Below are positions 17,390 to 35,442 of a DNA stretch of 64,000 nucleotides, in pieces. Origin of the DNA: a virus; the IMG/VR virus record IMGVR_UViG_3300031551_000001, positions 1-64,000 of that record; one strand, 5' to 3'. Made by a program: the position numbers and the translations under genes. The notes below the pieces were generated by a model that saw only the letters and a program-made list of their open reading frames with translations, ran no database searches and was not told the origin of the DNA. Numbering within the stretch: the stretch's first letter is position 1; each line of letters begins with the position of its first letter.

Positions 17390-18019
17390 TCATATACACG
17401 AAAGAATAATTTCTTTACATAATTCAACTGGTATTCTTCCCCTATCAAGAGATGACATTTTAGCTTGAACTCCAGTTTTTGAACCACGTGGTGCTGGTGT
17501 ATGATGGCAATTTTTATTTCCGTTATGACATTCGGGTCTAGGAATCCAAGTTTTTGAATTAGTAAAAATATCTGTAGGTTTAGCTCTCGTGTCCCCATAT
17601 TGACAATACCATACTGTATATCTATTAAATTTTTGTATAAATGGCATTTTACGATACATTCCTCTTGGATTTTCTATAAAAAATACCATATTAGGATTTA
17701 TTTTTAACCATTTTTTAATTAAACTAATAAAATGGATATTAACCAAATCACATTTTTTAGCATATTCAGATTTTGGATTTATTCCGTTTCTATGCGCTCT
17801 TAAACCAGCTATAGAATATGTTGTACAATCTGGAGATGCCCATATTAAATCTGGGATAAAGGGAATATCTGATATTTTTAATTTTTCAATATCTTTTACA
17901 AGATTTATTTTTGGTAATGATTCCCAGTCTACAGAAAAAACATTCATCCCATAAGAATCTGCCACATTCCCAATTGATCTATTTCCAGCGAATAATTCAA
18001 GTATATTTTTTATTTCCAT
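17390..18019 (-). CDS. C5-cytosine DNA methyltransferase (Dcm-like)
   Basis: 209 aa. SAM motif I LELFAGNRSIGNVADSYG (residues 8-25), motif IV region IWASPDCTTYSIAG with the catalytic Cys in a PDC context, and motif VI FFIENPRG. The C-terminal target recognition part is short, with a His/Cys-rich patch (NKNCHHTP). Likely methylates the phage genome at cytosines, protecting it from restriction. Overlaps the preceding glycosyltransferase gene by 10 nt, so it is in the same transcript. Confidence 0.85.
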   Translation of the reverse strand: MEIKNILELFAGNRSIGNVADSYGMNVFSVDWESLPKINLVKDIEKLKISDIPFIPDLIWASPDCTTYSIAGLRAHRNGINPKSEYAKKCDLVNIHFISLIKKWLKINPNMVFFIENPRGMYRKMPFIQKFNRYTVWYCQYGDTRAKPTDIFTNSKTWIPRPECHNGNKNCHHTPAPRGSKTGVQAKMSSLDRGRIPVELCKEIILSCI

Positions 18020-20898
18020 TGTTCTATATATTCTAATAATTGTTCTTTATTCATCTTAACAGACTTCTCGTATTCTTCTACATTTTTTTGATAATGAGGA
18101 TGAAATTTAGAGCTGTTAACACCCTGATAATGCCATAAATGGTATAGCTTACCAGGAATAGTATGTATGATGTATCCTAACTCTTTGAAGCGGTGGTAAA
18201 GTTCTATGTCCTCAAGCCCCCACGACATGAAAAGTTCATTTTCCCCTCCGGCCTCTAAATACTTTAACCTGTTAAAGAGTATCATTCCTCCCAGGCTCTT
18301 AACTGACGACTGCCCAGATCTAAAACTAAAATCCTTCTTCATCATGGTAGAATCATTTTTATCCATCTTTACAAATTCATCGAATGGATATACTACGTCT
18401 GCTTTGTTTATAGATATGGTTTCTATGGCGTCTTCCAGTTGCTGTTCAGGAATTATAACGTCAGCGTCACATACTACTATTATGTCGCTTCCAGAAGCTT
18501 TAGCCATTTCATTTAACATTTTAGTCCTGTGAAAATCAGGTATGTCAAACTCCATATAAGTACATTTGTCTTTTAGATATTCGAAATATCCTTTTCCCCT
18601 TTGTAACTGTTCTCCAATAATTATATCTGAGTATGCCGTAGACTCCAAATAGTTTATTACCGTGTCTAAATTCTTCTTTCGCATAGCACCATCATAGAAC
18701 AGTGGTATAAGGAATGTAACAGATACATCTGATAAGTCTTTGTATTCTGTGTTGCATGTTACATACTCCCTTATTTCTGCTGAAGAGTATAGATTGTATT
18801 TTACTTTTAAGTTAGTCAGTATGCTTTGATCGTGCCTATGATCTATGAACCCTTTGTGGAATTCAGGATTTGGTTGGTCCATTAATATCTCACCACCATT
18901 ATATGCACACCATTCAAGCCATTCTGTCATTATCCACATTGTCCTTTCAGACTTCTTACACACAATTATACCAGCCTCCATCTGTGGTTGGTCAAAGTAT
19001 TTCTTCTCCATGCAATCCATCTTCTCAAAACACAACTTCTTAGTGTATGTAATGTTTGGATGACATCCATCAGTCAGGAGTATATCTAATCCCTGCATTT
19101 TTTGCAGTAAAAAGTCCCTGTAATCTCCGCTTATTATATCCCCACTATCCATGTAAAGTAATATGTCACCATCATCCATGGTGTTAAGTGTAGCTATGAT
19201 GAAGTAAGGCTTCCACAGCCAGTATCCACCACCCCTTTTCTTATTCAATATTGAAGCATACTTCTTGTAAAACTCTGAGGCAGTGAGGTGTGATCTTGTA
19301 ATTTGATATGTTTTATCAACCATGCCCGAAGTAGTTACCCTGTTTATGAGTTTATCTTGTTGTGGTTTATAATTATCGTCTGCATAGCAAAGGAACACTA
19401 CTTTACGCTTTTCAAACTTAACCCTGTCTTGCAGTTGTTTTTTACTTAGTGTTTTTATGTGTTTTAGTTCTTGCTTCCCCTGTTGGAAAAAAGGATTGAA
19501 TATTGTGCTTATTGATGTGCAGTGGTGATTGAGATGATATAATCCTCCTTTTGTTCTTCCTACTTTATACCCTAATCTTCTAAATCTATCATACCTTTCT
19601 GCATCTTCTGGAGCATACGCTATAAACATTTCGTTCTCTCCACCTGCAGATATAAATGATTTCTTGTTGTACCCAATGGCTCCACCCACGCTTTTATCAT
19701 CTTTACCAACAAAGTCTATCCCGGATAACACCCCCACATCCCCACACTTAACCATATCAATATATTTTCTATTCCTGGCATATACTCCGTCTCCTACTCT
19801 TAAGAAGGCTCCATTGTAAGGATAAACAAAGTCATACCCATTTCTTAGCATTTTAACCATTTCGTACAGGTCAAAAGGAGATGTCAGAACATCAGCGTCC
19901 CAGTTAACAATGTATGGTGTGTTGGCTAAACTTGTCATTCTGTTTAACATCTTTGTCCTATGGAACTCCTTGTACGGAAATCTTACGTACTTGTCTCCAT
20001 AGTCTTTGAATTTACGGGTATGCTGTTCTCCTATGATTATGTTAGTGTCGAAGCATTTCCTTAAAAAGTTAATAGATATTTTAAGGTTCTCACGCCTGTC
20101 CATATGGTCGTATCGTACAGGAATAATGAATGTTGTATCTTTCAGATCTGTTTTATAATCATCATGGCATATCCATTCCGGTTCCCAGAAGTCTTTTTCG
20201 TTATGTGTTTTGGCTAGTGGACCTGAGAATATCTTTGGAGGTCTGATGCATTTCTTACTGTTAGCCAGGAAAGCACCCCACCAAGAGAAACTGCTATTAG
20301 CCAATATATGATTCTCACACCCAGCCATAATAGCTATATCTTGCATTGGCGTTCTTTCTTCTATTATGTATTGTTTCCCCTTAAAGTGAATCTTAGCATA
20401 TTCTACATCGTCTGTGCAAATGTAAAACTTGTATTTGGGATCGTTAAAGTATTTTACTATGGCTGATAGGTAGTATTCTGGGGGGAGGTTTATGTAGTTT
20501 GGATTGTTTATGTAGTCTCCTCTCCTTATGTGAATAGCAACAGTGTTGTCTCCAAGATAATCTGCAGACTTGGGCTTAAACCATTTGCGTATATCTTCTT
20601 TAATATTTTCCCAATACTTATATGATTGAAAAGTTCCAGTTAAATTAACCACACCTACATTAATATTATCTAATAAGGCAGGGTCATAATGAAAATATTT
20701 TTCTATTATTTCTACATCAGGAGTTACGTCTTTGTAAAATTCTTCTGGTAAATTTAATTGATATCTATATTTCCAATCTGTTATAATGGCTGGTTTGGAT
20801 TTATATTTATAAGCTTGGCCAATAACACATGCGGCCTCTAGCATATTGTTAGCCAATCGACCATATGTATTTAATTTTTTGAATGTGATATATTCCAT
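18010..20898 (-). CDS. Four-domain glycosyltransferase fusion, 962 aa
   Basis: Residues about 1-250: GT11-like alpha-1,2-fucosyltransferase (IHIRRGDY nucleotide-sugar motif, FSWWGAFLA). About 251-497: GT-A domain with WDADV as metal-binding DxD and a C-terminal GGAIGYNKKSF...YAPEDAERYDRF block. About 498-715: a third domain with GGGYWLWKPYFI and YMDSGDI. About 716-962: a second GT-A domain with CDADV, clearly duplicated from the first (both contain FHRTKMLN and AGGENE(M/L)F). Expected to add several sugars in sequence to a lipid-linked or surface glycan, in the cytoplasm. Far longer than single-domain relatives. Confidence 0.85.
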   Translation of the reverse strand: MEYITFKKLNTYGRLANNMLEAACVIGQAYKYKSKPAIITDWKYRYQLNLPEEFYKDVTPDVEIIEKYFHYDPALLDNINVGVVNLTGTFQSYKYWENIKEDIRKWFKPKSADYLGDNTVAIHIRRGDYINNPNYINLPPEYYLSAIVKYFNDPKYKFYICTDDVEYAKIHFKGKQYIIEERTPMQDIAIMAGCENHILANSSFSWWGAFLANSKKCIRPPKIFSGPLAKTHNEKDFWEPEWICHDDYKTDLKDTTFIIPVRYDHMDRRENLKISINFLRKCFDTNIIIGEQHTRKFKDYGDKYVRFPYKEFHRTKMLNRMTSLANTPYIVNWDADVLTSPFDLYEMVKMLRNGYDFVYPYNGAFLRVGDGVYARNRKYIDMVKCGDVGVLSGIDFVGKDDKSVGGAIGYNKKSFISAGGENEMFIAYAPEDAERYDRFRRLGYKVGRTKGGLYHLNHHCTSISTIFNPFFQQGKQELKHIKTLSKKQLQDRVKFEKRKVVFLCYADDNYKPQQDKLINRVTTSGMVDKTYQITRSHLTASEFYKKYASILNKKRGGGYWLWKPYFIIATLNTMDDGDILLYMDSGDIISGDYRDFLLQKMQGLDILLTDGCHPNITYTKKLCFEKMDCMEKKYFDQPQMEAGIIVCKKSERTMWIMTEWLEWCAYNGGEILMDQPNPEFHKGFIDHRHDQSILTNLKVKYNLYSSAEIREYVTCNTEYKDLSDVSVTFLIPLFYDGAMRKKNLDTVINYLESTAYSDIIIGEQLQRGKGYFEYLKDKCTYMEFDIPDFHRTKMLNEMAKASGSDIIVVCDADVIIPEQQLEDAIETISINKADVVYPFDEFVKMDKNDSTMMKKDFSFRSGQSSVKSLGGMILFNRLKYLEAGGENELFMSWGLEDIELYHRFKELGYIIHTIPGKLYHLWHYQGVNSSKFHPHYQKNVEEYEKSVKMNKEQLLEYIEQWK

Positions 20899-20919
20899 AA
20901 AATGTATAGTAGAATTATC

Positions 20920-21567
20920 CTAATCCAGTTTATTCTTAAAATATTTATGAGCTAAATGATAGTCAACATCATTAAACGCCACATCGCTGTATCCTGCCAT
21001 ATGATCTACTGGCCAAGGAATAAGTGCTAAACAATTAAATACAGGATGTACCTTCAAAGCATAGAACTCGTCAATCCCATAAGTGTATGTTGCGTTTTCA
21101 ATGATATAGTCATATAAATTATCGGCAATAATATAAGCATATGTGCCAGAAATTTGATTGGCTTTATAAACGTATGGATTGTCTGTGGGCGTTATGTCTT
21201 TGTCTGGAAATTCAAAATGTCCACCAAGATATAACATGTCAAAACCTCTGTCCACGGAATTCACTCTTTCTACGAAGTCCTCAGCTAACACTATATCATC
21301 CTCAAGAACAACAATATACTTGTATTGTTTTTCCTTAGCATGTTTGATGAGGCTTACATGAGACATTAAGCACCCTAATATTCCTTGTGCGTTACGTTCT
21401 CCATATTTCCTACTGTCTTCCGGTACTTCGAGGGTTCTACCATCTGTAGCTTCCCACCTGGTAAACGTTAGTCCAAGATTATCTAGTTTGGTTTTCATGT
21501 CGTTTAACCTATCTGTACGATGAGGAAGATTAACAACGAATATTGGTATGTCAGCTATTTTAATCAT
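20920..21567 (-). CDS. GT25-like glycosyltransferase (LPS/LOS biosynthesis type)
   Basis: 215 aa. IFVVNLPHRTDRLNDMKTKL at the N-terminus, GCLMSHVSLIKHAKEKQY and VVLEDDIVL (DDD/EDD metal site) are GT25 signatures; ends near YHLAHKYFK. GT25 enzymes add galactose or glucose to LPS, LOS or other glycans. Length is typical. Precedes the fusion gene by 21 nt in the same operon. Confidence 0.85.
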   Translation of the reverse strand: MIKIADIPIFVVNLPHRTDRLNDMKTKLDNLGLTFTRWEATDGRTLEVPEDSRKYGERNAQGILGCLMSHVSLIKHAKEKQYKYIVVLEDDIVLAEDFVERVNSVDRGFDMLYLGGHFEFPDKDITPTDNPYVYKANQISGTYAYIIADNLYDYIIENATYTYGIDEFYALKVHPVFNCLALIPWPVDHMAGYSDVAFNDVDYHLAHKYFKNKLD

Positions 21568-21582
21568 ATATGTGTGTTTTAA

Positions 21583-21623
21583 GGCTCATATGAGCGTTTG
21601 TGACAGCTTTAGATTCAAAGTTA
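21583..21623 (-). promoter_or_regulatory. Promoter with palindromic operator for the GT operon
   Basis: Minus-strand -7 TAACTTTG (21623-21616) then the perfect palindrome GCTCATATGAGC (21594-21583) between promoter and start at 21567. The palindrome position suits a dimeric repressor or a leader hairpin. Confidence 0.45.
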
Positions 21624-21688
21624 AGGTTTTTGTTGTCTTTTATATTATATCGCCCTCAGCGTCCTCTGAGGAAGCCACAGGGTATAAA

Positions 21689-22411
21689 TTATCTTTGTTT
21701 GTTTGTGTCATATAACCATACATAATTAATATTAGGATAAAAAAAGTTCTTGCGTTCATACATAGACCTAAATCTTGCGTTATCAGTGACTAAACAATCT
21801 ACGTTAATGTGTTTGTTTCTTTTCAGGGCAGATGCTAATGAATGTCCACCAGAATTAAGACATATATACCTCTTGCATGAAGATATGTAATTACATAACT
21901 CATATATATTGTTTACCGTGATAGTATCATTTACGTATATTCTGTCACTGCATATCTTTTCTCCTACTATCTGCACTAAACCTCCCCCCCCCTGCTTATC
22001 CAAGTATTCTTGTAAAACATTCTCATCATAGTCTCCTTCTCTTTTACTTGTTTTACATGACATGTCTACGAGTGTGATATCGGATAGTTCTGGGCAAAGG
22101 ACAGGTTGATAATATATTATCGGATAATCATTTGTATAAGGTAAAAAATTTGCAATCTCCCAATTGCCAATAAAGGATCCACATACGTTCTTTGGTTCAC
22201 GTCCTATTATTTCTCCACAGTTTCCGGGTTTATCCATCTTACCTTTAACAAATGGACTTAACCCCCACACCAACTCATATACTTCATCACTGCATGGAGT
22301 CTCTGCACTTATGTACACATCGTATCCCTGTTGGTGGAATAATGATGGTAAAGTACTGTGCTGTAAGCTATCACCAAGTCCATCATGCCACGATCTAATT
22401 ATTTTGTCCAT
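21689..22411 (-). CDS. GT9-like (heptosyltransferase-type) glycosyltransferase
   Basis: 240 aa. IIRSWHDGLGDSLQHSTLPS resembles the N-terminal GDxL/loop of ADP-heptose:LPS heptosyltransferases. CLNSGGHSLASALKR matches the C-terminal nucleotide-binding 'gGghSl.Aal.k' segment. Shorter than true WaaC/WaaF (about 320 aa), so a minimal GT-B variant or truncated family. Probable glycan role by context. Start overlaps the methyltransferase gene end by 13 nt. Confidence 0.65.
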   Translation of the reverse strand: MDKIIRSWHDGLGDSLQHSTLPSLFHQQGYDVYISAETPCSDEVYELVWGLSPFVKGKMDKPGNCGEIIGREPKNVCGSFIGNWEIANFLPYTNDYPIIYYQPVLCPELSDITLVDMSCKTSKREGDYDENVLQEYLDKQGGGGLVQIVGEKICSDRIYVNDTITVNNIYELCNYISSCKRYICLNSGGHSLASALKRNKHINVDCLVTDNARFRSMYERKNFFYPNINYVWLYDTNKQR

Positions 22412-22971
22412 ATCCCGTAGCTACATTGATGAGTATGAAAGTCATGTATCCCTTGTCCTGCCTCATAATATTGAACACAATCTCCGAAATGTCCTATAAA
22501 GAAGCCCATAGTAAATTCATGGTGATGAGCTTTATCTTTTCCGGCTTCTATTGGTTCAAAGAAACGAATTATTTTAGAAGCTTTTTTTGCCTTGTCAATA
22601 ATGATGTTAGGGTCTAACACGTGTTGAAGAACGTTCATTAACCACACCTCATCTACTTTAGGAAAGTCTATTTCTTCTGCTGGTTTTGTTAATAGAGTGA
22701 ATCCGGCTTTATCACATGTGTTTCGTAGTAATGATGATGGCATGGGTTCTATTATGTAGCAGTTACCGTGGTTATGACAGTAATCTAAGGCAGAAAAATC
22801 TGCTGGTCCTATCTCTATTATGTCCTTCTCCTGCAGGTCTGGATTTATTTGTAGGTAGTGGAAGTAGTTTCTGTAAGAATTTTTGTAGTGTTTTCTTCCT
22901 TCTATCTCGTCAAAGATATGATGTCTACGTTCCTCTATTTGTCCTAATTCCCATTTACTTCTTTCTATCAT
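22399..22971 (-). CDS. SAM-dependent methyltransferase, 190 aa
   Basis: Start chosen at MIERSKWELGQIEERRHH (22971), because its ATG overlaps the upstream stop as ATGA; an ATG at 22983 is possible. IIEIGPADFSAL is the SAM motif I, and WLMNVLQHVLDP, the motif IV/V region, is typical of class I small-molecule methyltransferases. Context argues for methylation of a sugar or glycan chain end. Between other glycan genes. Confidence 0.75.
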   Translation of the reverse strand: MIERSKWELGQIEERRHHIFDEIEGRKHYKNSYRNYFHYLQINPDLQEKDIIEIGPADFSALDYCHNHGNCYIIEPMPSSLLRNTCDKAGFTLLTKPAEEIDFPKVDEVWLMNVLQHVLDPNIIIDKAKKASKIIRFFEPIEAGKDKAHHHEFTMGFFIGHFGDCVQYYEAGQGIHDFHTHQCSYGIWTK

Positions 22972-23060
22972 TTTATTTCCCATTTATGATAAGCGTGTTC
23001 TTTTATTTGCCCTTCCTCCCATTGGCTTATGGGGACATCCTTAAATTCATTTTGTTTCAT
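22968..23060 (-). CDS. Micro-protein, 30 aa, coupled between two genes
   Basis: From ATG at 23060 (MKQNEFKDVPISQWEEGQI) to TGA at 22968. ATGA overlaps exist at both its start and its stop, a strong sign of translation. Its segment SQWEEGQIKEHAYHKWE resembles SKWELGQIEERRHHIFDE at the start of the next gene, suggesting a duplicated N-terminus. Confidence 0.55.
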   Translation of the reverse strand: MKQNEFKDVPISQWEEGQIKEHAYHKWEIK

Positions 23061-23674
23061 TTCTTTCTTTTTCTTAGCCATTTTGCAAGTGGATATGCGG
23101 GGTTGCAATCTGCATGATTATAATTATCACTAAAATATTCAGCAAACTCAATCATGTCCTTTTTATTAAATTGAGGTTTATTCTCTTTTATATATTGTTC
23201 AGCTTTTTCTTTTGATGAGAATATTTTATAATTATTAGAATAACGTGGCAATCTTGAAAAAAATACACTTTGCATTATATCATTATCAATATTATTTGTA
23301 TCTAAACAATAGAAAACTTGTCCATCACAAAGTTCTTTACCATCTTCTGTCTTTAAAGTTGGTTGTTTTTCTATTAATCTCGGGCCATAATCATTACCGC
23401 CGACTAACATGAAATTAATCGATTTAGTAAAATCTTTCCATTCCTTTTCTTCTAATTCGAATTTATCCTCTTCTATCTTTTCAAACCATGATGGATGTTG
23501 GTTTAATAATAATTTTATTTTGAATTTATCATCTTCCAATATACAATATCTTCTATATTTTTTATCTATAAATGGATTGTCAATTACTATATCTAAATTA
23601 TCTTTAAAGGTAATTATTGCAAATTCTTGTATACCATACCAATCAAGATTATCTGTGATTACTTTATATTTCAT
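23057..23674 (-). CDS. Hypothetical protein, 205 aa
   Basis: N-terminal MKYKVITDNLDWYGIQEF, then an alternating beta region (YCILEDDKFKIKLLLNQHPS) and a helical tail ending KWLRKRKK. The tail style, with aromatic and charged residues before a basic end, recurs in phage accessory proteins. No catalytic motif. Coupled to the micro-protein. Confidence 0.7.
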   Translation of the reverse strand: MKYKVITDNLDWYGIQEFAIITFKDNLDIVIDNPFIDKKYRRYCILEDDKFKIKLLLNQHPSWFEKIEEDKFELEEKEWKDFTKSINFMLVGGNDYGPRLIEKQPTLKTEDGKELCDGQVFYCLDTNNIDNDIMQSVFFSRLPRYSNNYKIFSSKEKAEQYIKENKPQFNKKDMIEFAEYFSDNYNHADCNPAYPLAKWLRKRKK

Positions 23675-23999
23675 TGTTTATTATTTTTAATAAAAAAGAC
23701 AAATTATTTTTATAAAGATATTTAATTCGTTGTTCTCTTTTTTCTAATTCTTCTTCTGAAATTTGTTTTTCTCTTCCATCGAGATAATCATATCCATTAT
23801 AATAATTGTATAAACCATAATCATTACAAACACTACCATTCCTAATTTTAAAATGCCCAATAATTTGTCCTTCTTTATATTTTAGTGGATGTTCTAATTT
23901 GTAATTTAATTCTTTTAACTTTTCATTTTCATTTTCTAATTTTGCGTTTTTTTCATGAAGACGATCAATAAGCCTTGTTTCTTCTGTTGCTTTTTTCAT
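23664..23999 (-). CDS. Hypothetical coiled-coil protein, 111 aa
   Basis: N-terminal coiled coil (LIDRLHEKNAKLENENEKL), then a small beta domain with GQIIGHFKIRNGS and a charged C-terminal helix. Probably a dimer. Start overlaps the DUF5672-like gene end by 35 nt. Unknown role. Confidence 0.7.
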   Translation of the reverse strand: MKKATEETRLIDRLHEKNAKLENENEKLKELNYKLEHPLKYKEGQIIGHFKIRNGSVCNDYGLYNYYNGYDYLDGREKQISEEELEKREQRIKYLYKNNLSFLLKIINNEI

Positions 24000-24699
24000 T
24001 ATTTTTAAGATTTAATATTTCGTTTCCGTTTATAAAGTTGCAATGATGAAATCCAAAATGTTTATTCACGTCAAAATAGAAGGGTTCTCTGTAATCATCC
24101 CCAAATTCACTACATCTGTTTTCGTAAGAAAATCTGTATGCGAGGTCTAATGGTGGAAATTTTATTTGATATTCCATACATTTTTCATAATTTATTGCCG
24201 TCAGAAAGATGTCTTCCCCCAAATACCCACATGTAATGAATTGATTGGAATATTCAAGGAACTTTCTACTTCTCAGAGAAAACCCCCCGTTGCCTATTCT
24301 GTTTTTAGAAATTGCTTTTCGTATAATATCTCGTTTATCTGGTGACTGATCTTGTATCCACTCTTCATCATCCGGCCAAGGGGCTCCAATATAATCATAC
24401 TTCAAAAACTCATCTGTCCACATATCTGGGTTCACAACATATCCATCTGACTGGATGACAAGCACATAATCATTATCTATATACTCTATTAAGTTAAGCA
24501 TAAAATTGTTGTACATCAGGACAGAGGAGAGGTGCGGAATCGCTATCTTTTCCACCCCCTCATATACTCTGTCTGTGCTTGATAAAAGAACAATCCTCCC
24601 AAAATTTATATCTTTTGATGAATATCTGAGTGCTGCTACAGCATCATCTGGACAATCGCAATTTACAGCTACAAGGGCTATTTTATCTTCCCTTTTCAT
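23965..24699 (-). CDS. DUF5672-like probable glycosyltransferase, 244 aa
   Basis: Start placed at MKREDKIALVAVNCDC (24699), the first ATG after the overlap with the phosphatase gene. VLVIQSDGYVV (DxD-like SDG), YDYIGAPWP, RIGNGGFSLRSR and FGFHHCNF fit the DUF5672 family, found in glycan loci and thought to be a GT-A enzyme. Likely sugar transfer to a surface glycan. Length normal for the family. Confidence 0.75.
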   Translation of the reverse strand: MKREDKIALVAVNCDCPDDAVAALRYSSKDINFGRIVLLSSTDRVYEGVEKIAIPHLSSVLMYNNFMLNLIEYIDNDYVLVIQSDGYVVNPDMWTDEFLKYDYIGAPWPDDEEWIQDQSPDKRDIIRKAISKNRIGNGGFSLRSRKFLEYSNQFITCGYLGEDIFLTAINYEKCMEYQIKFPPLDLAYRFSYENRCSEFGDDYREPFYFDVNKHFGFHHCNFINGNEILNLKNNEKSNRRNKAY

Positions 24700-25378
24700 C
24701 TGGGTACAAATTTTTAACCAAATCACTTTGCCAAAATTCTTTAGTATCTATATTTATTAAGGTTAATTTCCCTTCCCATCCAGCACCTTGATCAATATTC
24801 CATAAATTACGAATATGTACAGGACTTAAATCACTTTTAGTTCTTGATGTTGTTGTGTGACCAATATAAATTTCATCATAATCTTTTACCTCAAAAATAG
24901 GAGAAAATAGATAAGACCAAAATAAATCTCTGTCCCATGTTAAATCATATATAGATTGCTTAGAAATATCCTTCACTAAAGAAAAACCTCCATGAACAAA
25001 CAATTTATTATCTTTTGTTATATAATAAGGTTTCGCATTCTCAAGAAATTTCTCATGTTTTTGTTCATAATTTGAATCTTGTACTCTATAATAAGCATTT
25101 AAAGTGGCTTCTCCTCCTTGGGACGTCCATATTCTTGGTTTATTATAAGTTTTGAAATAATCCAGCAACCACCGATCATGATTTCCTAAAATATAAATTA
25201 GATTTTTAAACTTCATAAGTTCTTCAAAACATTCAGGAACTTGGCTCCATCCATCAGCTACATCCCCCAAGCTTATTAATAAATCATTATCGTAATCTAT
25301 CCCTGATTTTTCAATAACCTGCATTAGCGCTTTATATGCACCATGAATATCTCCCAAACAAAATCTTTTTATTTCCAT
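24683..25378 (-). CDS. Calcineurin-like metallophosphatase, 231 aa
   Basis: GDIHGAYKAL (residues 9-18), GDVADGWSQ and GNHDRW are the three metal-ligand blocks of the PPP/metallophosphoesterase family, and a later GHTTTSR supplies the final His. Resembles phage lambda-type Ser/Thr phosphatases. Substrate could be a protein or a sugar phosphate; location inside a glycan island favours the latter, weakly. Confidence 0.9.
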   Translation of the reverse strand: MEIKRFCLGDIHGAYKALMQVIEKSGIDYDNDLLISLGDVADGWSQVPECFEELMKFKNLIYILGNHDRWLLDYFKTYNKPRIWTSQGGEATLNAYYRVQDSNYEQKHEKFLENAKPYYITKDNKLFVHGGFSLVKDISKQSIYDLTWDRDLFWSYLFSPIFEVKDYDEIYIGHTTTSRTKSDLSPVHIRNLWNIDQGAGWEGKLTLINIDTKEFWQSDLVKNLYPDEKGR

Positions 25379-26355
25379 ATTGTAGGTAAATTTTTATATA
25401 CCTCTATGTTCGTAAATTCTTTCGATTCTTCAATTTCCTGAGTATTTGCCCATTCAACCATTTTGTTAATTCCGTCCCATATCTGTGTTTTATTTATAGA
25501 AGGAAAATGCTTCTTGATCTTATCAATAGAACAATATGCATTATGCACTTCATTTCTTGCTTTAACATGCATTATTTGTTGATGAGACCCCATAGCACGC
25601 TTTACCATTTCTGCTATATCGTTTACAGAATATGTCTTTTCTGCTCCTATGTTAAAAGTTTTATTATACATTTCAGGTTTAAAAGCAGATTGAGCTATTT
25701 TAGGGGCTATGTCCCCTATAAATGAAAATGCTCTTGTCTGAGTGCCGTCTCCGAACACGGTCAATGGCTTATCAGAAAGAATTTGATTAATAAAAATACC
25801 AAGAACATTTCTATATTTATCGTTGAGTCGTTGTCTTGGCCCGTAAATATTGTATGGGCGAAAGATAATGTAATCAAGACCAAACATTTTATTGGCTGCT
25901 ATTATATCAAGTTCTGTGGCATATTTAGCTATACCGTATGGGTCTATGGGTTGTGGTTGTGTTTCTTCTGTAAACGGTGGTTCTGCATCTCCATAACAAG
26001 CTATTGAACTAAAAAAGATAAGTTTTGCTTCATGTTTTATGCATTCATTGATAATATTCATAGAACCTACTACATTGTTGGTATAATTGAAATTGCGTAT
26101 AAAATGAGAGAGCCCTTCGGCAGCATAAGCAGCCAAATGAAATACATATTCGAATTTATAGTCTACGAACATCCAGCTCATTTGCCTTTTGTCATTGACT
26201 GTCATCTGGTAAAAATGAGACTTCCTGTTTATATTGTTCGTGCTTCCCCCGCTTAAATTATCCACGACATAAACATCATGTTTGAGATTTATGAGTTCGT
26301 CAACTATATGAGAACCAATAAACCCTAAACCTCCGGTTACAAGTATATTACTCAT
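25369..26355 (-). CDS. NAD-dependent sugar epimerase/dehydratase (extended SDR)
   Basis: 328 aa. Rossmann motif GGLGFIGSH (8-16), DNLSGG, catalytic Ser in SSIACYGD and the Y140xxxK144 pair in DPYGIAKYATE. Matches the UDP-glucose/UDP-GlcNAc 4-epimerase group in length and sequence. Likely makes or interconverts a nucleotide-sugar donor used by the transferases in this island. Overlaps the phosphatase by 10 nt. Confidence 0.9.
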   Translation of the reverse strand: MSNILVTGGLGFIGSHIVDELINLKHDVYVVDNLSGGSTNNINRKSHFYQMTVNDKRQMSWMFVDYKFEYVFHLAAYAAEGLSHFIRNFNYTNNVVGSMNIINECIKHEAKLIFFSSIACYGDAEPPFTEETQPQPIDPYGIAKYATELDIIAANKMFGLDYIIFRPYNIYGPRQRLNDKYRNVLGIFINQILSDKPLTVFGDGTQTRAFSFIGDIAPKIAQSAFKPEMYNKTFNIGAEKTYSVNDIAEMVKRAMGSHQQIMHVKARNEVHNAYCSIDKIKKHFPSINKTQIWDGINKMVEWANTQEIEESKEFTNIEVYKNLPTIWK

Positions 26356-26362
26356 TTTCTAA

Positions 26363-26548
26363 TTATTTTAGGTTTATAAACCAAGAATAATTTATCACAA
26401 TAAACACACCTAGAATAAATACAACCACTCCACACATCCATTTCCCATGTAAGTTTTGGTTTGTGAAAACCAAATAAACATTTAATCTTTCTAAACATTT
26501 TGGTTTTAAATCATCAATACCACTATCAATATTTTTTAATGTCTTCAT
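26363..26548 (-). CDS. Small membrane-anchored protein, 61 aa
   Basis: Start at MKTLKNIDSGIDDLKPKC (26548). One hydrophobic helix near the C-terminus (CGVVVFILGVFIVINYSWF). Overlaps the upstream small gene by 23 nt. Unknown function. Confidence 0.55.
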   Translation of the reverse strand: MKTLKNIDSGIDDLKPKCLERLNVYLVFTNQNLHGKWMCGVVVFILGVFIVINYSWFINLK

Positions 26549-26684
26549 GAATAGTTTCATCTATGCTCTCTAAATATTCATCATATAAACCCTCACTTAA
26601 ACCTTCGCTAAAAAGAGCAAAACCAACATCCAAAATATTCAATACCCGATCTTTATTGAGATGTTTTTCGGTGAACTGCTTCAT
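26526..26684 (-). CDS. Small acidic protein, 52 aa
   Basis: Start at MKQFTEKHLNKDRVLNIL (26684), after the YopX-like stop; an in-frame ATG at 26708 is alternative. Helical, acidic tail (YLESIDETIHEDI). Unknown. Confidence 0.5.
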   Translation of the reverse strand: MKQFTEKHLNKDRVLNILDVGFALFSEGLSEGLYDEYLESIDETIHEDIKKY

Positions 26685-26694
26685 TATATAGTAG

Positions 26695-27108
26695 CTATTC
26701 CAATGCATTTTTTCTTAATAATTCTAAATTTTCGTAAATATTTCCAATTATTTCAATATCTTTAATCGAATATAATTCTGTAAAATTAAATTCATTTCCA
26801 TATAACGTATCGTTAGGTTTTCCCCTAAATGCCCCATTTTTGAAAATAATACTCCATACAGAATTTACCATTTTAGAAGCGTCATTCTGAACAATATCAC
26901 CTTCATAAATCTCTTTGCCTTGACGATCATGTAATCCAGTAAATTGCATTAAAATTGCATGTTTATTAGTAGGATAATTTTTATTTGGAGTTTCTTTTAT
27001 TGGCCATATTCTTAAAAAAGACTCATCTGGCATTTGCATAATAGTTTGTACAAATACCATTCTTTTTTCATTTATTAGCCATGCCCTGAATTTAATTTCT
27101 CTATTCAT
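26695..27108 (-). CDS. YopX-family protein, 137 aa
   Basis: REIKFRAWLINEKRMVFV at the start and QFTGLHDRQGKEIYEGDIV in the middle are the family signatures, followed by a beta region and GNIYENLELL. YopX proteins are frequent in phages and integrative elements of Gram-positives and Bacteroidota; function not established. Position between glycan genes probably has no meaning. Confidence 0.9.
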   Translation of the reverse strand: MNREIKFRAWLINEKRMVFVQTIMQMPDESFLRIWPIKETPNKNYPTNKHAILMQFTGLHDRQGKEIYEGDIVQNDASKMVNSVWSIIFKNGAFRGKPNDTLYGNEFNFTELYSIKDIEIIGNIYENLELLRKNALE

Positions 27109-27907
27109 ATCTTGATTTTTTTTTAAAGTTTTTCACAATCCATGTTTTTAAAGGATAATCAGGCTTGCCCCAATACAAACCTGTATCGTTAAAATTCAAC
27201 CATGTTTTCCCGGCTATAGCAACCTCTATATCCTTATAGGTGTCCTGTTTAAAACACGTGGTTCTGTTCTCATAAAAACCCTCGAACCCAACTTTATAAT
27301 CATTCTCCTCCACCAATGGTTTTCCTGAATACTCATCAGGATAAAGATTAAAATATAGTGTGGCAAGAGAATATGGCCGTGCCTGTTCCCAAAACTTATA
27401 TTCATTGAACATTTGTTTCAATAAGTCTTTCTTATAAATTAAAGGGAGATGATGTTCAAAGCTGTATTTTGCTTTATGGAGAATATATGCTTGGTTAGTG
27501 GTTTTCCCATTATGAGAAGACTGGTTTACTTTAAATAGTTTATTTGTATAGTGTAGCCAAGGTACGTTCTTTATCCCCGTTTTATCTATTTGTTTAAGAA
27601 GAATAATATCATCATATATATAACAAAACTCTTTTGGGCATTGTTCTGAATTGACGTATGTATAAACCTTATTCAAAACATCAAAATAATTTTCAAACGG
27701 CCTGTGTCCGTTGTTGATTTTTAATAACCTTTCAGGATAAAATCTTTCTATTTGTTCTGAATATCCTTTGTACCATTCAGGGGTAGTGGTTGAATAAAGA
27801 ACTACATCAAATTCATCCATAAAATTAGCCTGTAAGGATCTGAGCATATATTTAAGCTCATTATTCCCCCACAGACTATTAATTCCTAATGGAACAAAAA
27901 ATATCAT
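27101..27907 (-). CDS. Stealth-like / GT-A glycosyltransferase candidate, 268 aa
   Basis: Start at ATG 27907 (MIFFVPLGINSLWGNN), which overlaps the upstream stop as ATGA. FCYIYDDIILLKQI provides a DD metal site like Stealth CR2, and FEHHLPLIYKKDLLKQM resembles the later conserved block. Stealth proteins are phosphotransferases of capsule synthesis. Function assigned by motif and by its glycan neighbours; alternative GT-A families cannot be excluded. Confidence 0.6.
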   Translation of the reverse strand: MIFFVPLGINSLWGNNELKYMLRSLQANFMDEFDVVLYSTTTPEWYKGYSEQIERFYPERLLKINNGHRPFENYFDVLNKVYTYVNSEQCPKEFCYIYDDIILLKQIDKTGIKNVPWLHYTNKLFKVNQSSHNGKTTNQAYILHKAKYSFEHHLPLIYKKDLLKQMFNEYKFWEQARPYSLATLYFNLYPDEYSGKPLVEENDYKVGFEGFYENRTTCFKQDTYKDIEVAIAGKTWLNFNDTGLYWGKPDYPLKTWIVKNFKKKSRYE

Positions 27908-28386: not shown

Positions 28387-28944
28387 CTAAATAGCGTTGG
28401 TAATTTGTTTTGTCGTTGGAGTCCACATGTCTTGTTTCCCACCTTTATGTTCATCTACCCATTTTTTCAGATAATTACAAACACCATTAAACCAATCTAC
28501 CTGAGATTTAGTAGTTACTTTCATTGAAGCATATTTACCTGCTCTAGCATCTTTCATGTATTCTTTAATTTCCCCGGTAAGTCTTACTCTTGGAAGATAT
28601 AACCAATAAGGCTCTAAACATATAGATAATTTATCTGCTGCACAAAGTTTAGAGGGATTAACATTGTCTTTTTTTGCATAAAATCTTGAGTGATATTTAG
28701 ACAAATTAGCCCATCTTTCCCCAAATACAGACATAATTTTCGCACCAAATTCCACGTGAGATTCTCCTTCTTCTCCATCCATATTTGGCTTACCAACATA
28801 ACCCAAATCATGCACAAAAAACAATAGCCATAATCTTGGATCAAAAGGAAATCCATAGAGTTTCCACCAAGCTATAAACACAAACACAGGATGAATAAAA
28901 AAACAATGAGCACCAAACAACACTGATTTAGTTCCTACTTTCAT
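28387..28944 (-). CDS. HD-domain phosphohydrolase-like protein, 185 aa
   Basis: H18, the H45-D46 pair in FFVHDLGYVG, H63/H85 and D104 in CAADKLSICL reproduce the HD superfamily metal site spacing. HD enzymes hydrolyse nucleotides or cyclic nucleotides; the substrate here is not deducible. Hydrophobic N-terminal third may contact membrane. Sits at the entry of a regulatory cluster with XRE, HU and DHH genes. Confidence 0.7.
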   Translation of the reverse strand: MKVGTKSVLFGAHCFFIHPVFVFIAWWKLYGFPFDPRLWLLFFVHDLGYVGKPNMDGEEGESHVEFGAKIMSVFGERWANLSKYHSRFYAKKDNVNPSKLCAADKLSICLEPYWLYLPRVRLTGEIKEYMKDARAGKYASMKVTTKSQVDWFNGVCNYLKKWVDEHKGGKQDMWTPTTKQITNAI

Positions 28945-30666: not shown

Positions 30667-31199
30667 AATTTTATTATTTGTACCTGTCCTCTTACAGCTT
30701 GTTTAAATGCTTTACTTACGTTAATGGCTCTTATAAGGTCTGTTCCGTTAAGTGGTATTTTTCCAGACAAAAGGGAAGATGTCATGAGACTCCCAATAGC
30801 CTCTGCGTGGCCTACTCCTATTGAAGCGTATGGAAGCTCACAAGACAAGACAGTAAAATTATTATCAATCTCAAAAATCTTTTTGCCTGTGTTTATTAAT
30901 ATATTCCACAATCCATCAAGCGTAGATACCACATCATTATCCCTTAAATGATCAATAAAATTAGTATACACAGAATCTTCATCAATCAAATCTTTTGCGA
31001 TAGGATTAAATGATGTTTCATTGATCATTTTTCTTAGTTCGTGGATTATTATTGTTTTACCGGCAACACCAATTAAGATGTCTTTGTGTTGGAATATCTT
31101 CTTGTAATTTGTTCTGTAAACATTATCGCCATCATAATAATATGAATCAGAAGCCATCCACGACCCCTTACTCGATATAATTGTTGCTACTGCGCTCAT
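30663..31199 (-). CDS. Proteasome-like Ntn hydrolase (20S/HslV-fold), 178 aa
   Basis: 'VATIISSKGSWMASDS' then 'KIFQHKDILIGVAGK' follow the strand pattern of proteasome beta/HslV proteins in phages. The catalytic nucleophile would be N-terminal Thr or Ser, but here the mature end is MSAVAT, so Thr6 or Ser2 would need processing; activity is not assured. Possible role: degradation of host or phage proteins, without a visible ATPase partner next to it. The AAA ATPase at 1174-2106 is far away. Confidence 0.65.
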   Translation of the reverse strand: MSAVATIISSKGSWMASDSYYYDGDNVYRTNYKKIFQHKDILIGVAGKTIIIHELRKMINETSFNPIAKDLIDEDSVYTNFIDHLRDNDVVSTLDGLWNILINTGKKIFEIDNNFTVLSCELPYASIGVGHAEAIGSLMTSSLLSGKIPLNGTDLIRAINVSKAFKQAVRGQVQIIKL

Positions 31200-32094
31200 T
31201 TTTTATTATTTTATTAATATTTTCTGCACTTATTCTAAATCCAGCAGCCCCCTTATGACCACCACCCCCTAGGCTTTTAGCTATAATAGAACAATCAGCT
31301 TTTCCATTATCATTATATAAACTAAAATTATATGTTCCATTTGCATAATGGAAACAAGCCGCCCCATCATATCCGTCTTTATGATAATTTATGCCAAAAT
31401 TTATGGGATTAAAACGTTCTTTATTTACACAAATAAATTTCCTAACAGTGGTAATATTATTTTCTATTAATTCTACAAATTCTATAGGAAATCCATTTTT
31501 ATATGATTGCTTCGCCTCTGTACATAAGTATTTATAAATTTCTTTTCCAGATGAAATCATTCTATCAGTTAAAAATGATTCTTTTATACTTTTTTCAAGC
31601 CATTTATAACATTCGTCAACATTACTTATGTTAGCTCGGGCAGCATATTGAAATTCTAATACCTTTTGTTCTTCATTGGTTCCTTTGTGCCTAAAGCAAT
31701 CATATCTACCGAGTAAACGAACAAATTCTGGCATTGGTTCTTTAGGGAAACAATAATCCCAAGTAAGTTCACATGCGGCAAATTTATTGTCTAGATAATT
31801 AATACAAAAAGATTCTCCATCTCCAATAAATTTCTTATAATCATCAATAGCTGATTTATGGTGATCAATCCATATAAATTGCCATCCAGATCCTTTTGCA
31901 TATTTTTCCATTATCTCAATTGGAAATGAAACGTCAACCATAACAATTTTTTCGTTTTCAGGAATATTAGGAAATTCATCTCCATAATTCCATCCAAACA
32001 ATTTAAGATCAATTTCTTTTTCTTTACACCATTTTTTTACGATAGCAGCGCTACACCAACCATCTAAATCTATTGAATGATAAATACAATACAT
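31168..32094 (-). CDS. DHH/DHHA1 phosphoesterase, 308 aa
   Basis: D11, D54 and the D77-H78-H79 motif in WIDHHKSAID define the DHH fold. The C-terminal DHHA1 signature GGGGHKGAAGF supplies substrate binding. Relatives degrade oligoribonucleotides (nano-RNA) or cyclic di-AMP. In a phage it could recycle nucleotides or remove signalling oligonucleotides of host defence. Overlaps the proteasome-like gene by 32 nt. Confidence 0.85.
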   Translation of the reverse strand: MYCIYHSIDLDGWCSAAIVKKWCKEKEIDLKLFGWNYGDEFPNIPENEKIVMVDVSFPIEIMEKYAKGSGWQFIWIDHHKSAIDDYKKFIGDGESFCINYLDNKFAACELTWDYCFPKEPMPEFVRLLGRYDCFRHKGTNEEQKVLEFQYAARANISNVDECYKWLEKSIKESFLTDRMISSGKEIYKYLCTEAKQSYKNGFPIEFVELIENNITTVRKFICVNKERFNPINFGINYHKDGYDGAACFHYANGTYNFSLYNDNGKADCSIIAKSLGGGGHKGAAGFRISAENINKIIKNERSSNNYIE

Positions 32095-32638: not shown

Positions 32639-33637
32639 GTGGATAATTTAGTACAAACTTTAATAAAAGAACGAATGATAGTAAAAGAAAAAAAAGGAGG
32701 GTGTTTTTTTGACTTAATACAAGGAGATTGTTCTATTGAAAACGAATATATAAAAGATGGTAGTGTTGACCTTATTTTAACTGATTTGCCTTATGGTACT
32801 GTAAAGGGTATGGGTGGAGATATGGCGAAATATAAACACCTAAGTAATGCAAGTTGGGACGTTGTTATACCTACCGAAAAGATAATGCAGATTGCAAACA
32901 GAATACTTAGGAAAAACGGCAAAATGGTATTGACCGCAAACCAACCGTTTACAACTGAGCTAATAAGTAAGCAGATACCTAACTTGCCACATTGCTATAA
33001 TATGTATTGGGATAAAATGCACTTTGCAAATTGTTTGGTTGCAAACAAAGCTCCAGTAAGCTACATGGAGGATATTTTGGTTTTTAGTAAAGATTATGAC
33101 TTTGAAAACTTGCACCCACTTAGAGAATACTTTAGTAATGTACTTTCTTTTATTGGGCTTAAAAAGAAAACCATAATTGAAACAATAGGGCAAAGGGCAG
33201 ACCATGTATTTAGGGTGAAAAGTTCGCAATTTGAATTATGCAAAAAAGAAACATATTTGGCTTTGATTGCTGAATATAGGATTAACAATATGGATGACTT
33301 TTTAAATTATACGGAACTTGAAAACATAAACGAAAAATACACAAGCACTTTTAATCTATGGGAAGGAAACAAACACAAAAGCAATATACTTAAATACAAA
33401 AAGGATTATGATGGGCTCCATCCAACACAAAAGCCTGTATTATTGCTTGAAGATTTGATTAAGACTTTTAGCAATAAAAACGACTTAGTTGTTGATTTGA
33501 CAATGGGAAGCGGAAGTACTGGTGTAGCTTGTAAGAATACCAAACGTAACTTTATAGGAATTGAAAAAGACGAGAAGTATTTTGATATAGCAGTAAACCG
33601 AATTAAAATTATTGAACCAAAACCCCAACAACTTTGA
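32639..33637 (+). CDS. Beta-class DNA N-methyltransferase, 332 aa
   Basis: GTG start at 32639; an ATG at 32675 is alternative. Motif IV DLPYG at residues 49-53 comes first, motif I DLTMGSGSTG near the C-terminus, the beta-class order of N6-adenine/N4-cytosine enzymes. NANQPFTTELI and HPTQKPV support the assignment. No restriction enzyme is adjacent, so it is an orphan methylase. It lies alone on the plus strand among minus-strand genes, suggesting late acquisition. Confidence 0.9.
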   Translation: MDNLVQTLIKERMIVKEKKGGCFFDLIQGDCSIENEYIKDGSVDLILTDLPYGTVKGMGGDMAKYKHLSNASWDVVIPTEKIMQIANRILRKNGKMVLTANQPFTTELISKQIPNLPHCYNMYWDKMHFANCLVANKAPVSYMEDILVFSKDYDFENLHPLREYFSNVLSFIGLKKKTIIETIGQRADHVFRVKSSQFELCKKETYLALIAEYRINNMDDFLNYTELENINEKYTSTFNLWEGNKHKSNILKYKKDYDGLHPTQKPVLLLEDLIKTFSNKNDLVVDLTMGSGSTGVACKNTKRNFIGIEKDEKYFDIAVNRIKIIEPKPQQL

Positions 33638-34317: not shown

Positions 34318-35442
34318 ATGAAATTGACATTGAAAATAAAACTTTTGCCCACTGACGAACAGACTAACTTGCTTCTCGAAACGATGAAGGAAGCTAATGC
34401 TGTTTGTAATGCCATATCTGATGTTGCTTGGCAAGAAAGGATTTTCAATAATTTTAAACTCCATCACAAAGTTTACCATTCTTACAAGGCTACGTTTAAA
34501 CTTTCTTCTCAAATGCTTATCAGGCAAATAGCTAAAGTTGCTGATGCTTATAAGCTGGATAAGAAAACTAAACGTACTTTTAATCCACTTGGCGGTATCG
34601 CCTACGATAGTAGGATAATGACTTACAAGCCTGACAATGTGATTTCTTTGTGGTGTATTGGTGGCAGACAAAAGATTGATTTTGTTTGCCACAACCCTGC
34701 TTATATTCCTTACATCAAAGGGGAAGCTGATTTGGTTTACAAGAAAGGTAAGCTTTACTTGTTTCAAACTGTTGATGTACCCGAAGAAGATGTTGAGGAC
34801 GTAGAAAGCTTCGTGGGTGTGGATTTTGGTTTGGTTTCGATTGCCACACTTAGTAATGGAAAAGAATTTAACTCTAAAATACTTCAAGAATATCGAGAAA
34901 AAAGACAAAAAGTAAGAAGCTCCGTTCAAAGCAAACGCACAAGAGGAAGTAAAAAACTCTTGAAAAGGCTTTCTGGCAGAGAACGTACACACGCTTCTAT
35001 CACTAACCATACGATTGCGAAACAAATTGTTCAAATTGCAAAAGAAGAAAACAAAGGAATTGCTTTGGAAGATTTGAAAGGCATCAGATTTTCTTCTTTG
35101 AAAAAAGGCAAAAAGTTTAGAACAAAAGTTGGAAAGTGGTCTTTTAATCAGTTGCGTCAATACATTTCCTACAAAGCTATTCTTAATGGTGTTCCTGTTG
35201 TTTTGGTTAATCCAAGATACACAAGCAAAACTTGTAATAACTGCCACCACATAGGAAATAGAAAAGGAAAAGTATTTGAATGCAACAACTGCGGAAACAG
35301 TATGGATGCCGATGTTAACGCATCGCTCAATATTGCTACGCTGGGGGCAATCGTAAATTTGCCTGAAAAGTCGGATATGTATAGCTGCGCTTTGCATTAT
35401 TCAGATTTAAAGCCCACCCCATCGCTTTGCGTGGGTGGGTAG
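34318..35442 (+). CDS. tnpB: TnpB RNA-guided nuclease (IS605 OrfB)
   Basis: 374 aa. RuvC-like catalytic residues: D169 in VGVDFGL, E251 in ALEDLKGI, and D330/D332 in SMDADVNASLNI. Zinc finger: C306/C309 and C322/C325 (TCNNCHHIG...ECNNCGNS). Length and domains are full. TnpB uses a right-end omega RNA to cut DNA next to a short TAM; the 3' end of this gene overlaps the right-end hairpin, where that RNA is made. No frameshift seen, so it is probably functional. Confidence 0.95.
   Translation: MKLTLKIKLLPTDEQTNLLLETMKEANAVCNAISDVAWQERIFNNFKLHHKVYHSYKATFKLSSQMLIRQIAKVADAYKLDKKTKRTFNPLGGIAYDSRIMTYKPDNVISLWCIGGRQKIDFVCHNPAYIPYIKGEADLVYKKGKLYLFQTVDVPEEDVEDVESFVGVDFGLVSIATLSNGKEFNSKILQEYREKRQKVRSSVQSKRTRGSKKLLKRLSGRERTHASITNHTIAKQIVQIAKEENKGIALEDLKGIRFSSLKKGKKFRTKVGKWSFNQLRQYISYKAILNGVPVVLVNPRYTSKTCNNCHHIGNRKGKVFECNNCGNSMDADVNASLNIATLGAIVNLPEKSDMYSCALHYSDLKPTPSLCVGG

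Follow-up and report, generated by a model that had tools for sequence, protein, structure and literature searches.

A candidate glycan-assembly cassette of cyanophage type in a probable Bacteroidota-type podovirus

Results

A minus-strand island of glycosyltransferases and one epimerase

From an IMG/VR virus contig of 81,885 bases (record IMGVR_UViG_3300031551_000001) we analysed the first 64,000 nucleotides, a stretch referred to below as the window. Between positions 17390 and 27907, the minus strand carries an island with at least seven glycosyltransferase (GT) domains, a DUF5672 protein being counted among them, and one epimerase. This island is very probably a coherent glycan-assembly cassette: its family content, intact motifs, GTs without membrane helices, conserved neighbourhood and gene turnover are all directly supported. 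A fuller explanation, to which we give an even chance, is that it is a horizontally shared viral cassette, the acceptor most likely being a lipid-linked intermediate of LPS, O-antigen or capsule. The features of the island, all on the minus strand, are as follows:

17390..18019, minus strand: C5-cytosine DNA methyltransferase, not a glycan gene (phrog_757, E 5e-22); its start overlaps the GT962 stop by 10 nt
18010..20898, minus strand: GT962, a single 962-aa chain, GT11 / GT-A (GT7C) / GT-A (GT8-like) / GT-A (GT7C, GT2), from profiles and fold
20170..20898, minus strand: GT962 domain 1, aa 1-243, GT11 alpha-1,2-fucosyltransferase type (PF01531 63 bits, cut-off 23.9; phrog_2644 E 2e-43)
19423..20151, minus strand: GT962 domain 2, aa 250-492, GT-A, galactosyltransferase-C type with a DAD motif (phrog_15655 E 2e-77)
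18733..19410, minus strand: GT962 domain 3 (dom3), aa 497-722, predicted GT-A fold of GT8/GT6 type (AlphaFold pLDDT 93.6, Foldseek)
18028..18732, minus strand: GT962 domain 4, aa 723-957, GT2/GT7C type (PF02709 50 bits, PF00535 43 bits, whole protein)
20920..21567, minus strand: GT25 glycosyltransferase with an EDD motif (PF01755 63.6 bits, cut-off 24; phrog_2835)
21689..22411, minus strand: GT9-like protein, predicted GT-B heptosyltransferase fold (AlphaFold/Foldseek)
22399..22983, minus strand: putative SAM methyltransferase (phrog_3603 E 6e-10; Methyltransf_11 E 0.023, below cut-off), overlapping the GT9-like gene by 13 nt
23965..24699, minus strand: DUF5672 protein, putative GT (PF18922 72 bits, cut-off 24.4)
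24683..25378, minus strand: NinI-like Ser/Thr protein phosphatase (phrog_246 E 3e-49)
25369..26355, minus strand: nucleotide-sugar epimerase (SDR), GalE-like (PF01370 173 bits, cut-off 20.9; 4zrm E 1.5e-51)
26526..26708, minus strand: remnant of a second SAM methyltransferase, 60 codons (comparison with the sister contig)
26695..27108, minus strand: phrog_98 protein, function unassigned, a passenger (phrog_98 E 4e-35)
27101..27907, minus strand: Stealth-like/phrog_7999 protein, possible GT (phrog_7999 E 4e-10; Stealth_CR2 16.2 bits, below cut-off)

In order of transcription, the genes are orf72, the Stealth-like gene, the phrog_98 gene, the methyltransferase remnant, orf65, the epimerase, the NinI-like phosphatase, DUF5672, orf111, orf205, the SAM methyltransferase, GT9-like, GT25, GT962 and the C5-cytosine DNA methyltransferase. 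The phrog_98 protein, the remnant (orf60), orf65, orf111 and orf205 have no known glycan role. Predicted membrane helices are confined to orf72 (two) and orf65 (one), the larger island proteins, GTs included, having none.

The original prediction had placed on this strand a four-domain transferase, GT25-, GT9-, DUF5672- and Stealth-like proteins, a SAM methyltransferase, an epimerase and a phosphatase. When the profile searches it proposed were run, most of these glycan families were recovered where it had put them, the GT11, GT7C/GT2, GT25, DUF5672 and epimerase profiles all scoring far over their Pfam cut-offs, so that by sequence the products of 20920..21567 and 23965..24699 classify as GT25 and DUF5672 proteins. 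Across the island enzymes the DxD-type, GT11, GT25 EDD and SDR motifs are intact, the last being GGLGFIG and YxxxK in the epimerase, which is nearest by sequence to UDP-glucose 4-epimerases and reaches no NCBIfam equivalog cut-off. The methyltransferase is a probable one, matching its PHROGs family while staying below the Pfam cut-off.

Other parts of the prediction did not hold. Its ATGA coupling occurs solely between orf72 and the Stealth-like gene, most island junctions being overlaps of 8-35 nt. The Stealth assignment was dropped: CR2 reaches 16.2 bits where the cut-off is 39.4, no other Stealth region was matched, and phrog_7999, of unassigned function, is the better match. Also dropped was a sugar-phosphatase role for 24683..25378, a relative of Ser/Thr protein phosphatases; among the cassette loci described below the sister contig alone also carries such a gene, which is probably a passenger. 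Neither this phosphatase nor the gene at 17390 is a glycan gene, no initiating transferase, flippase or polymerase was found in the island, and its sugar-nucleotide supply amounts to one epimerase, leaving the proposed "complete small pathway" unsupported.

GT962 fuses four glycosyltransferase domains in a conserved order

The predicted four-domain transferase was borne out as GT962, in which one GT11 and three GT-A domains follow one another. By profile and by motif (HIRRGDY and SSFSWWGA, both intact) domain 1 classifies as a GT11 fucosyltransferase, and domains 2 and 4 are paralogues. Domain 3 has no Pfam match; its AlphaFold model, like that of the GT9-like protein, was built from an alignment of relatives, and in Foldseek the predicted fold matches LgtC, xylosyltransferases and GT6 enzymes, together with mimivirus GTs and a capsid GT of PBCV-1.

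The domain order of GT962 is the gene order GT11-GT7C-dom3-GT2 of 17 other loci: wherever GT11, GT7C and dom3 are contiguous, the locus continues with GT2, either adjacent to dom3 or fused with it (17 of 17). One such dom3-GT2 fusion already exists as gp185 of Prochlorococcus phage P-TIM68. Because domain order and gene order coincide, we read this as evidence that the fused GTs would work in sequence.

The GT9-like protein belongs to a nearly virus-restricted family

The GT9-like protein had been named as such in the prediction, and the name holds in part: there is no match in Pfam, PHROGs or NCBIfam, the curated GT9 profile included, while the AlphaFold model (pLDDT 87) matches the heptosyltransferases TibC (E 2e-7), WaaF (E 5e-5) and WaaC (E 1e-3) in Foldseek. 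It is thus a predicted GT-B enzyme with heptosyltransferases as best structural matches. TibC is a heptosyltransferase that acts on protein. The predicted GT-B fold and an invariant N-terminal GLGD motif are common to all four proteins, but the GT9-like protein is some 80-150 residues shorter than the other three and, unlike them, has no Pfam or NCBIfam match.

By tblastn against 50,697 phage records, GT9-like genes were found solely in P-TIM68 (two records) and Marine virus AG-345-E08. In IMG/VR, an alignment of four GT9-like proteins as the query returned 57 loci, sister contig included; the alignment was required, single-protein scans of viral contigs having recovered solely the sister. Among 84,980 prokaryote genomes two loci were detected by a scan with two short patterns, which makes rarity likely rather than exact, Bacteroidota genomes not being covered by the profile; among 251 Prochlorococcaceae genomes there was one. 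One of the two scan loci (L067, PBYV01000054.1), binned to an Acidimicrobiaceae MAG, has phage-cassette-like gene content and is probably viral. The other belongs to a Prochlorococcus single-cell genome and is alone in being clearly cellular; it is part of a surface-polysaccharide locus, where its neighbours are dom3, GT11, an initiating transferase of the Bac_transf family (207 bits), an ABC-type membrane protein and nucleotide-sugar enzymes (names partly assigned by eye). The GT9-like family is therefore likely to be nearly virus-restricted and without a database model, and it could serve as a metagenome marker of such cassettes. The window's member sits on a long branch, with about 27-40% identity to all relatives except the sister, and a recent transfer from cyanophages to Bacteroidota phages was set aside as unsupported.

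The window phage is probably of Bacteroidota type

TerL and portal are 21-24% identical, over about 80% of their length, to those of podoviruses of Flavobacterium, Cellulophaga and Tenacibaculum. A Shine-Dalgarno-like word precedes 4 of 87 ORFs, with 4.2 expected from shuffled sequence, and the frequency of A at -13 to -11 is 0.64 as against 0.43 further upstream, an enrichment not found in the cyanophage contigs compared. An A-rich upstream start context without Shine-Dalgarno is characteristic of Bacteroidetes (PMC6847099), and on this ground the window phage, a Bacteroidota-type podovirus by its genes, probably has a Bacteroidota host; neither the TerL/portal relatives nor the start-codon context indicates a cyanophage. 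The contig also encodes, at 64753-69645 (+), a 1630-aa structural-region protein without Pfam matches.

The same families recur together in cyanophage-type cassettes

Comparison with other phages, likewise proposed in the original prediction, showed the same families recurring as neighbours in dozens of phage contigs, beyond chance. P-TIM68 and AG-345-E08 match GT962 over 98% of its length and also carry epimerase homologues. Iterative profile searches within about 10 kb of the GT9-like gene in 61 loci found an epimerase in 57, dom3 in 45, GT11 in 42, GT7C in 41 and GT25 in 41; a ninth GT (12), the SAM methyltransferase (10) and DUF5672 (9) were less common. The loci having been selected by GT9-like, these counts show its partners and not an unbiased frequency. 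In the viral loci, nearly all proteins near GT9-like lack a predicted membrane helix.

The DUF5672 protein, the epimerase and the ninth GT of window or sister are nearest to cassettes that hold all three (AG-345-E08, L047, L048, L050, L054, L060), with identities of 46-54%, 42-44% and 48-52%, respectively; L048 has all nine families and a psbA-type gene on the same contig. PsbA/psbD-type genes occur in 13 of 49 records tested, the Prochlorococcus genome itself among them, and a T4-type Gp23 capsid gene, searched alongside, in five. The larger contigs L014, L044, L057 and L064, in which no psbA was seen, may be different phages. In the records L024 and L025 (G011:C1:30029-31711, G012:C1:150042-151724) the Gp23-type capsid match of a large phage is split in two, with a gap and an in-frame TAA, a pattern that an intron or an interruption could produce.

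TerL of the window matches none of the cassette contigs tested, many of which are fragments; this speaks weakly against a close kinship with the window phage. In 38-40 of the relative loci there are genes for a PfkB sugar kinase, a HIGH nucleotidyltransferase and a cupin isomerase, none of which appears in the Pfam matches of the island and the 79 other phage proteins. Judged by gene content, a cassette typical of cyanophages is present in another lineage, which suggests that phages of different phyla have in common a set of tools for making a sugar chain of their own, whether it is placed on the host surface or on the virion.

Near-identical phages differ in single glycosyltransferase genes

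A sister contig (IMGVR_UViG_3300031278_000132, L002; 35,863 bp) is 96-99% identical across most of the island. Relative to it, the window has a 1.1-kb deletion that left the 60-codon methyltransferase remnant (26526-26708) and removed the rest of this second methyltransferase, intact in the sister, together with the adjacent ninth GT (L002:726-1930). In the sister, the middle of the DUF5672 gene is replaced by a LAGLIDADG ORF (L002:3983-4561), both ends being still recognisable.

The terminase-portal-capsid stretch (13 kb) is collinear with the sister at 97.4% identity, whereas several window genes outside the island are missing from it. Stretches absent from the sister include 32675-33637 (+), 31168-32094 (-) and 28387-28944 (-), holding an N6/N4 DNA methylase gene, a DHH-family gene and a gene without a Pfam match. 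Because the sister differs elsewhere on the accessory strand too, turnover is a property of that strand, the island being one of its sites, and a claim of island-specific hypervariability was toned down. The sister's TnpB genes lie at sites other than the window's, one of them within the glycan island; since the sites differ between near-identical contigs, TnpB/Y1 elements appear to move between such phages. IS200/IS605-type TnpB and Y1 transposase genes are located at 34318-35442 (+) of the window and at 72800-73336 (-) and 73619-74887 (+) of the contig.

Proposed function: host surface or virion

We infer the following mechanism. Soluble phage GTs would act one after another in the host cytoplasm, adding phage-specified sugars (from fucose-, galactose- and heptose-type donors, judging by family) to a host-supplied acceptor, with O-methylation as an optional step. 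The epimerase would provide one modified nucleotide sugar and the host the remaining donors, and fusion of four GTs in one chain could hold successive steps together. The acceptor would most likely be a lipid-linked intermediate of LPS, O-antigen or capsule, and the altered surface of the infected cell would no longer be bound by rival or sibling phages.

That the host surface is the target is a tentative reading, just short of an even chance, and remodelling of this surface is somewhat favoured over decoration of the virion, both targets having been named in the original prediction. GT9 and GT25 are LPS-type families, and the cellular GT9-like copy of Prochlorococcus lies in a surface-polysaccharide locus. 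Gene turnover between strains that are 96-99% identical fits selection on a surface trait, although it is not island-specific. Published interpretations of the GT clusters in cyanophages and pelagimyophages lean towards a change of the host surface (PMC7824862, PMC7029224, PMC9602691). Because the island has neither initiating transferase, flippase and polymerase nor GTs with membrane helices, an LPS target would need the lipid carriers of the host.

The absence of lipid-carrier, flippase and polymerase genes also suits glycosylation of the virion, a possible but less probable reading in which proteins of the capsid, fibres or tail would receive an oligosaccharide from the same soluble GTs while in the cytoplasm, by analogy with PBCV-1, which would alter virion stability, adsorption or antigenicity. 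The GTs of PBCV-1 are mostly soluble and cytoplasmic, among them a three-domain galactosyl/xylosyl/fucosyl transferase and one GT for which a methyltransferase domain is predicted; in antigenic variants of this virus the GT gene has point mutations or deletions (PMC7826918, PMC5408694). The window is like it in design: it has a soluble GT of several domains as well as a methyltransferase, and a GT has been lost at strain level. The fold of GT962 domain 3 matches mimivirus GTs and a capsid GT of PBCV-1. The nearest fold match of the GT9-like protein, TibC, acts on proteins, which counts against the host surface. So does the finding that the cassettes of cyanophages include kinase and nucleotidyltransferase genes of heptose type, heptose being reported as absent from cyanobacterial LPS (PMC4515613). 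However, the fold matches, at TM about 0.45-0.6, are distant and extend to LPS enzymes, no acceptor protein was identified, and the island has non-structural genes as its company, the structural ones being encoded on the other strand. A broader proposal, which we regard as unlikely, is that unrelated marine phage lineages, with at least Cyanobacteria and Bacteroidota as hosts, would have in common an essentially viral, modular glycan system, its GT families scarcely occurring in cells, that decorates their own virions with a phage-encoded, strain-variable oligosaccharide, a counterpart of chlorovirus capsid glycosylation.

It is improbable that the island is a loose collection of unrelated accessory genes with no joint function, gathered by TnpB and homing elements in a variable region: TnpB and LAGLIDADG genes and several passengers do lie in or near the block and near-identical strains differ in gene content, but across dozens of phage contigs the same families are found side by side and their order is conserved, and no catalytic-type motif is disrupted. 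Glycosylation of modified DNA bases, with the C5-cytosine methyltransferase that overlaps the GT962 stop as first step, is very unlikely because no TET/JBP, hydroxymethylase or other base hydroxylase was found by Pfam in the 79 other phage proteins of a contig that may be incomplete, nor in the island, whose proteins have no match to the T4-type DNA-GT family (Pfam, PHROGs). Together with at least seven GT domains, the epimerase and the homologous cyanophage cassettes, this upholds the earlier label of a glycan-modification island and the remark that there is more glycan enzymology here than DNA hypermodification needs.

Comparison with known systems

GtrABC seroconversion combines a multi-membrane GtrA flippase with a GtrC transferase, whereas the window's GTs have no predicted helix and no GtrA match was found among the proteins outside the island. 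The GTs of pelagimyophage host-recognition clusters, for which a role in altering the O-chain of the host has been proposed (PMC7029224), are a likeness in that they too form phage GT clusters, but they are GT8-dominated and lie largely in the tail-fibre region, in contrast to the GT11/GT25/GT9-like set of the window, which stands away from structural genes. With PBCV-1 capsid glycosylation (PMC7826918, PMC5408694), the window has in common soluble multi-domain GTs, a methyltransferase and GT loss in variants; PBCV-1, however, is a eukaryotic virus with a capsid glycan, and the window is likened to it by design and fold, being known from its genes alone.

Phage "LPS clusters" of GTs and an epimerase have long been noted in cyanophages. 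By gene content the window belongs with these LPS/capsular polysaccharide clusters (P-SSM2 type; gp181-gp197 of P-TIM68), having several GT families and an NAD-dependent epimerase clustered, with homologous genes: GT11, GT7C, dom3, GT9-like and distant GT25 and epimerase homologues are common to P-TIM68 and the window. The cassette of AG-345-E08 (L008) resembles the window's in DUF5672 (54%), epimerase (43%) and GT9-like (33%), and the sister's in the ninth GT (48%); it also has GT25, GT11, GT7C and dom3, and a D1/psbA-like ORF (by eye). Unlike in the window, its GT11, GT7C, dom3 and GT2 are separate, its genes form two opposed strings, and no NinI-type phosphatase was found. The window differs from the cyanophage clusters in its Bacteroidota-type podovirus setting, in the fusion of four GTs and in lacking the PfkB kinase, HIGH nucleotidyltransferase and cupin.

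To our knowledge, four things are new: the occurrence of cyanophage-type modules as a set in a podovirus of Bacteroidota type, the fusion of four GTs, the GT9-like family and natural variants by GT gain or loss. It appears not to be settled which of the two, host surface or virion, is changed by cyanophage "LPS clusters"; the sister strain, which differs in single GT genes, offers natural variants for comparison, and the presence of these modules in a podovirus whose host belongs to another phylum shows that the cassette does not depend on photosynthetic hosts.
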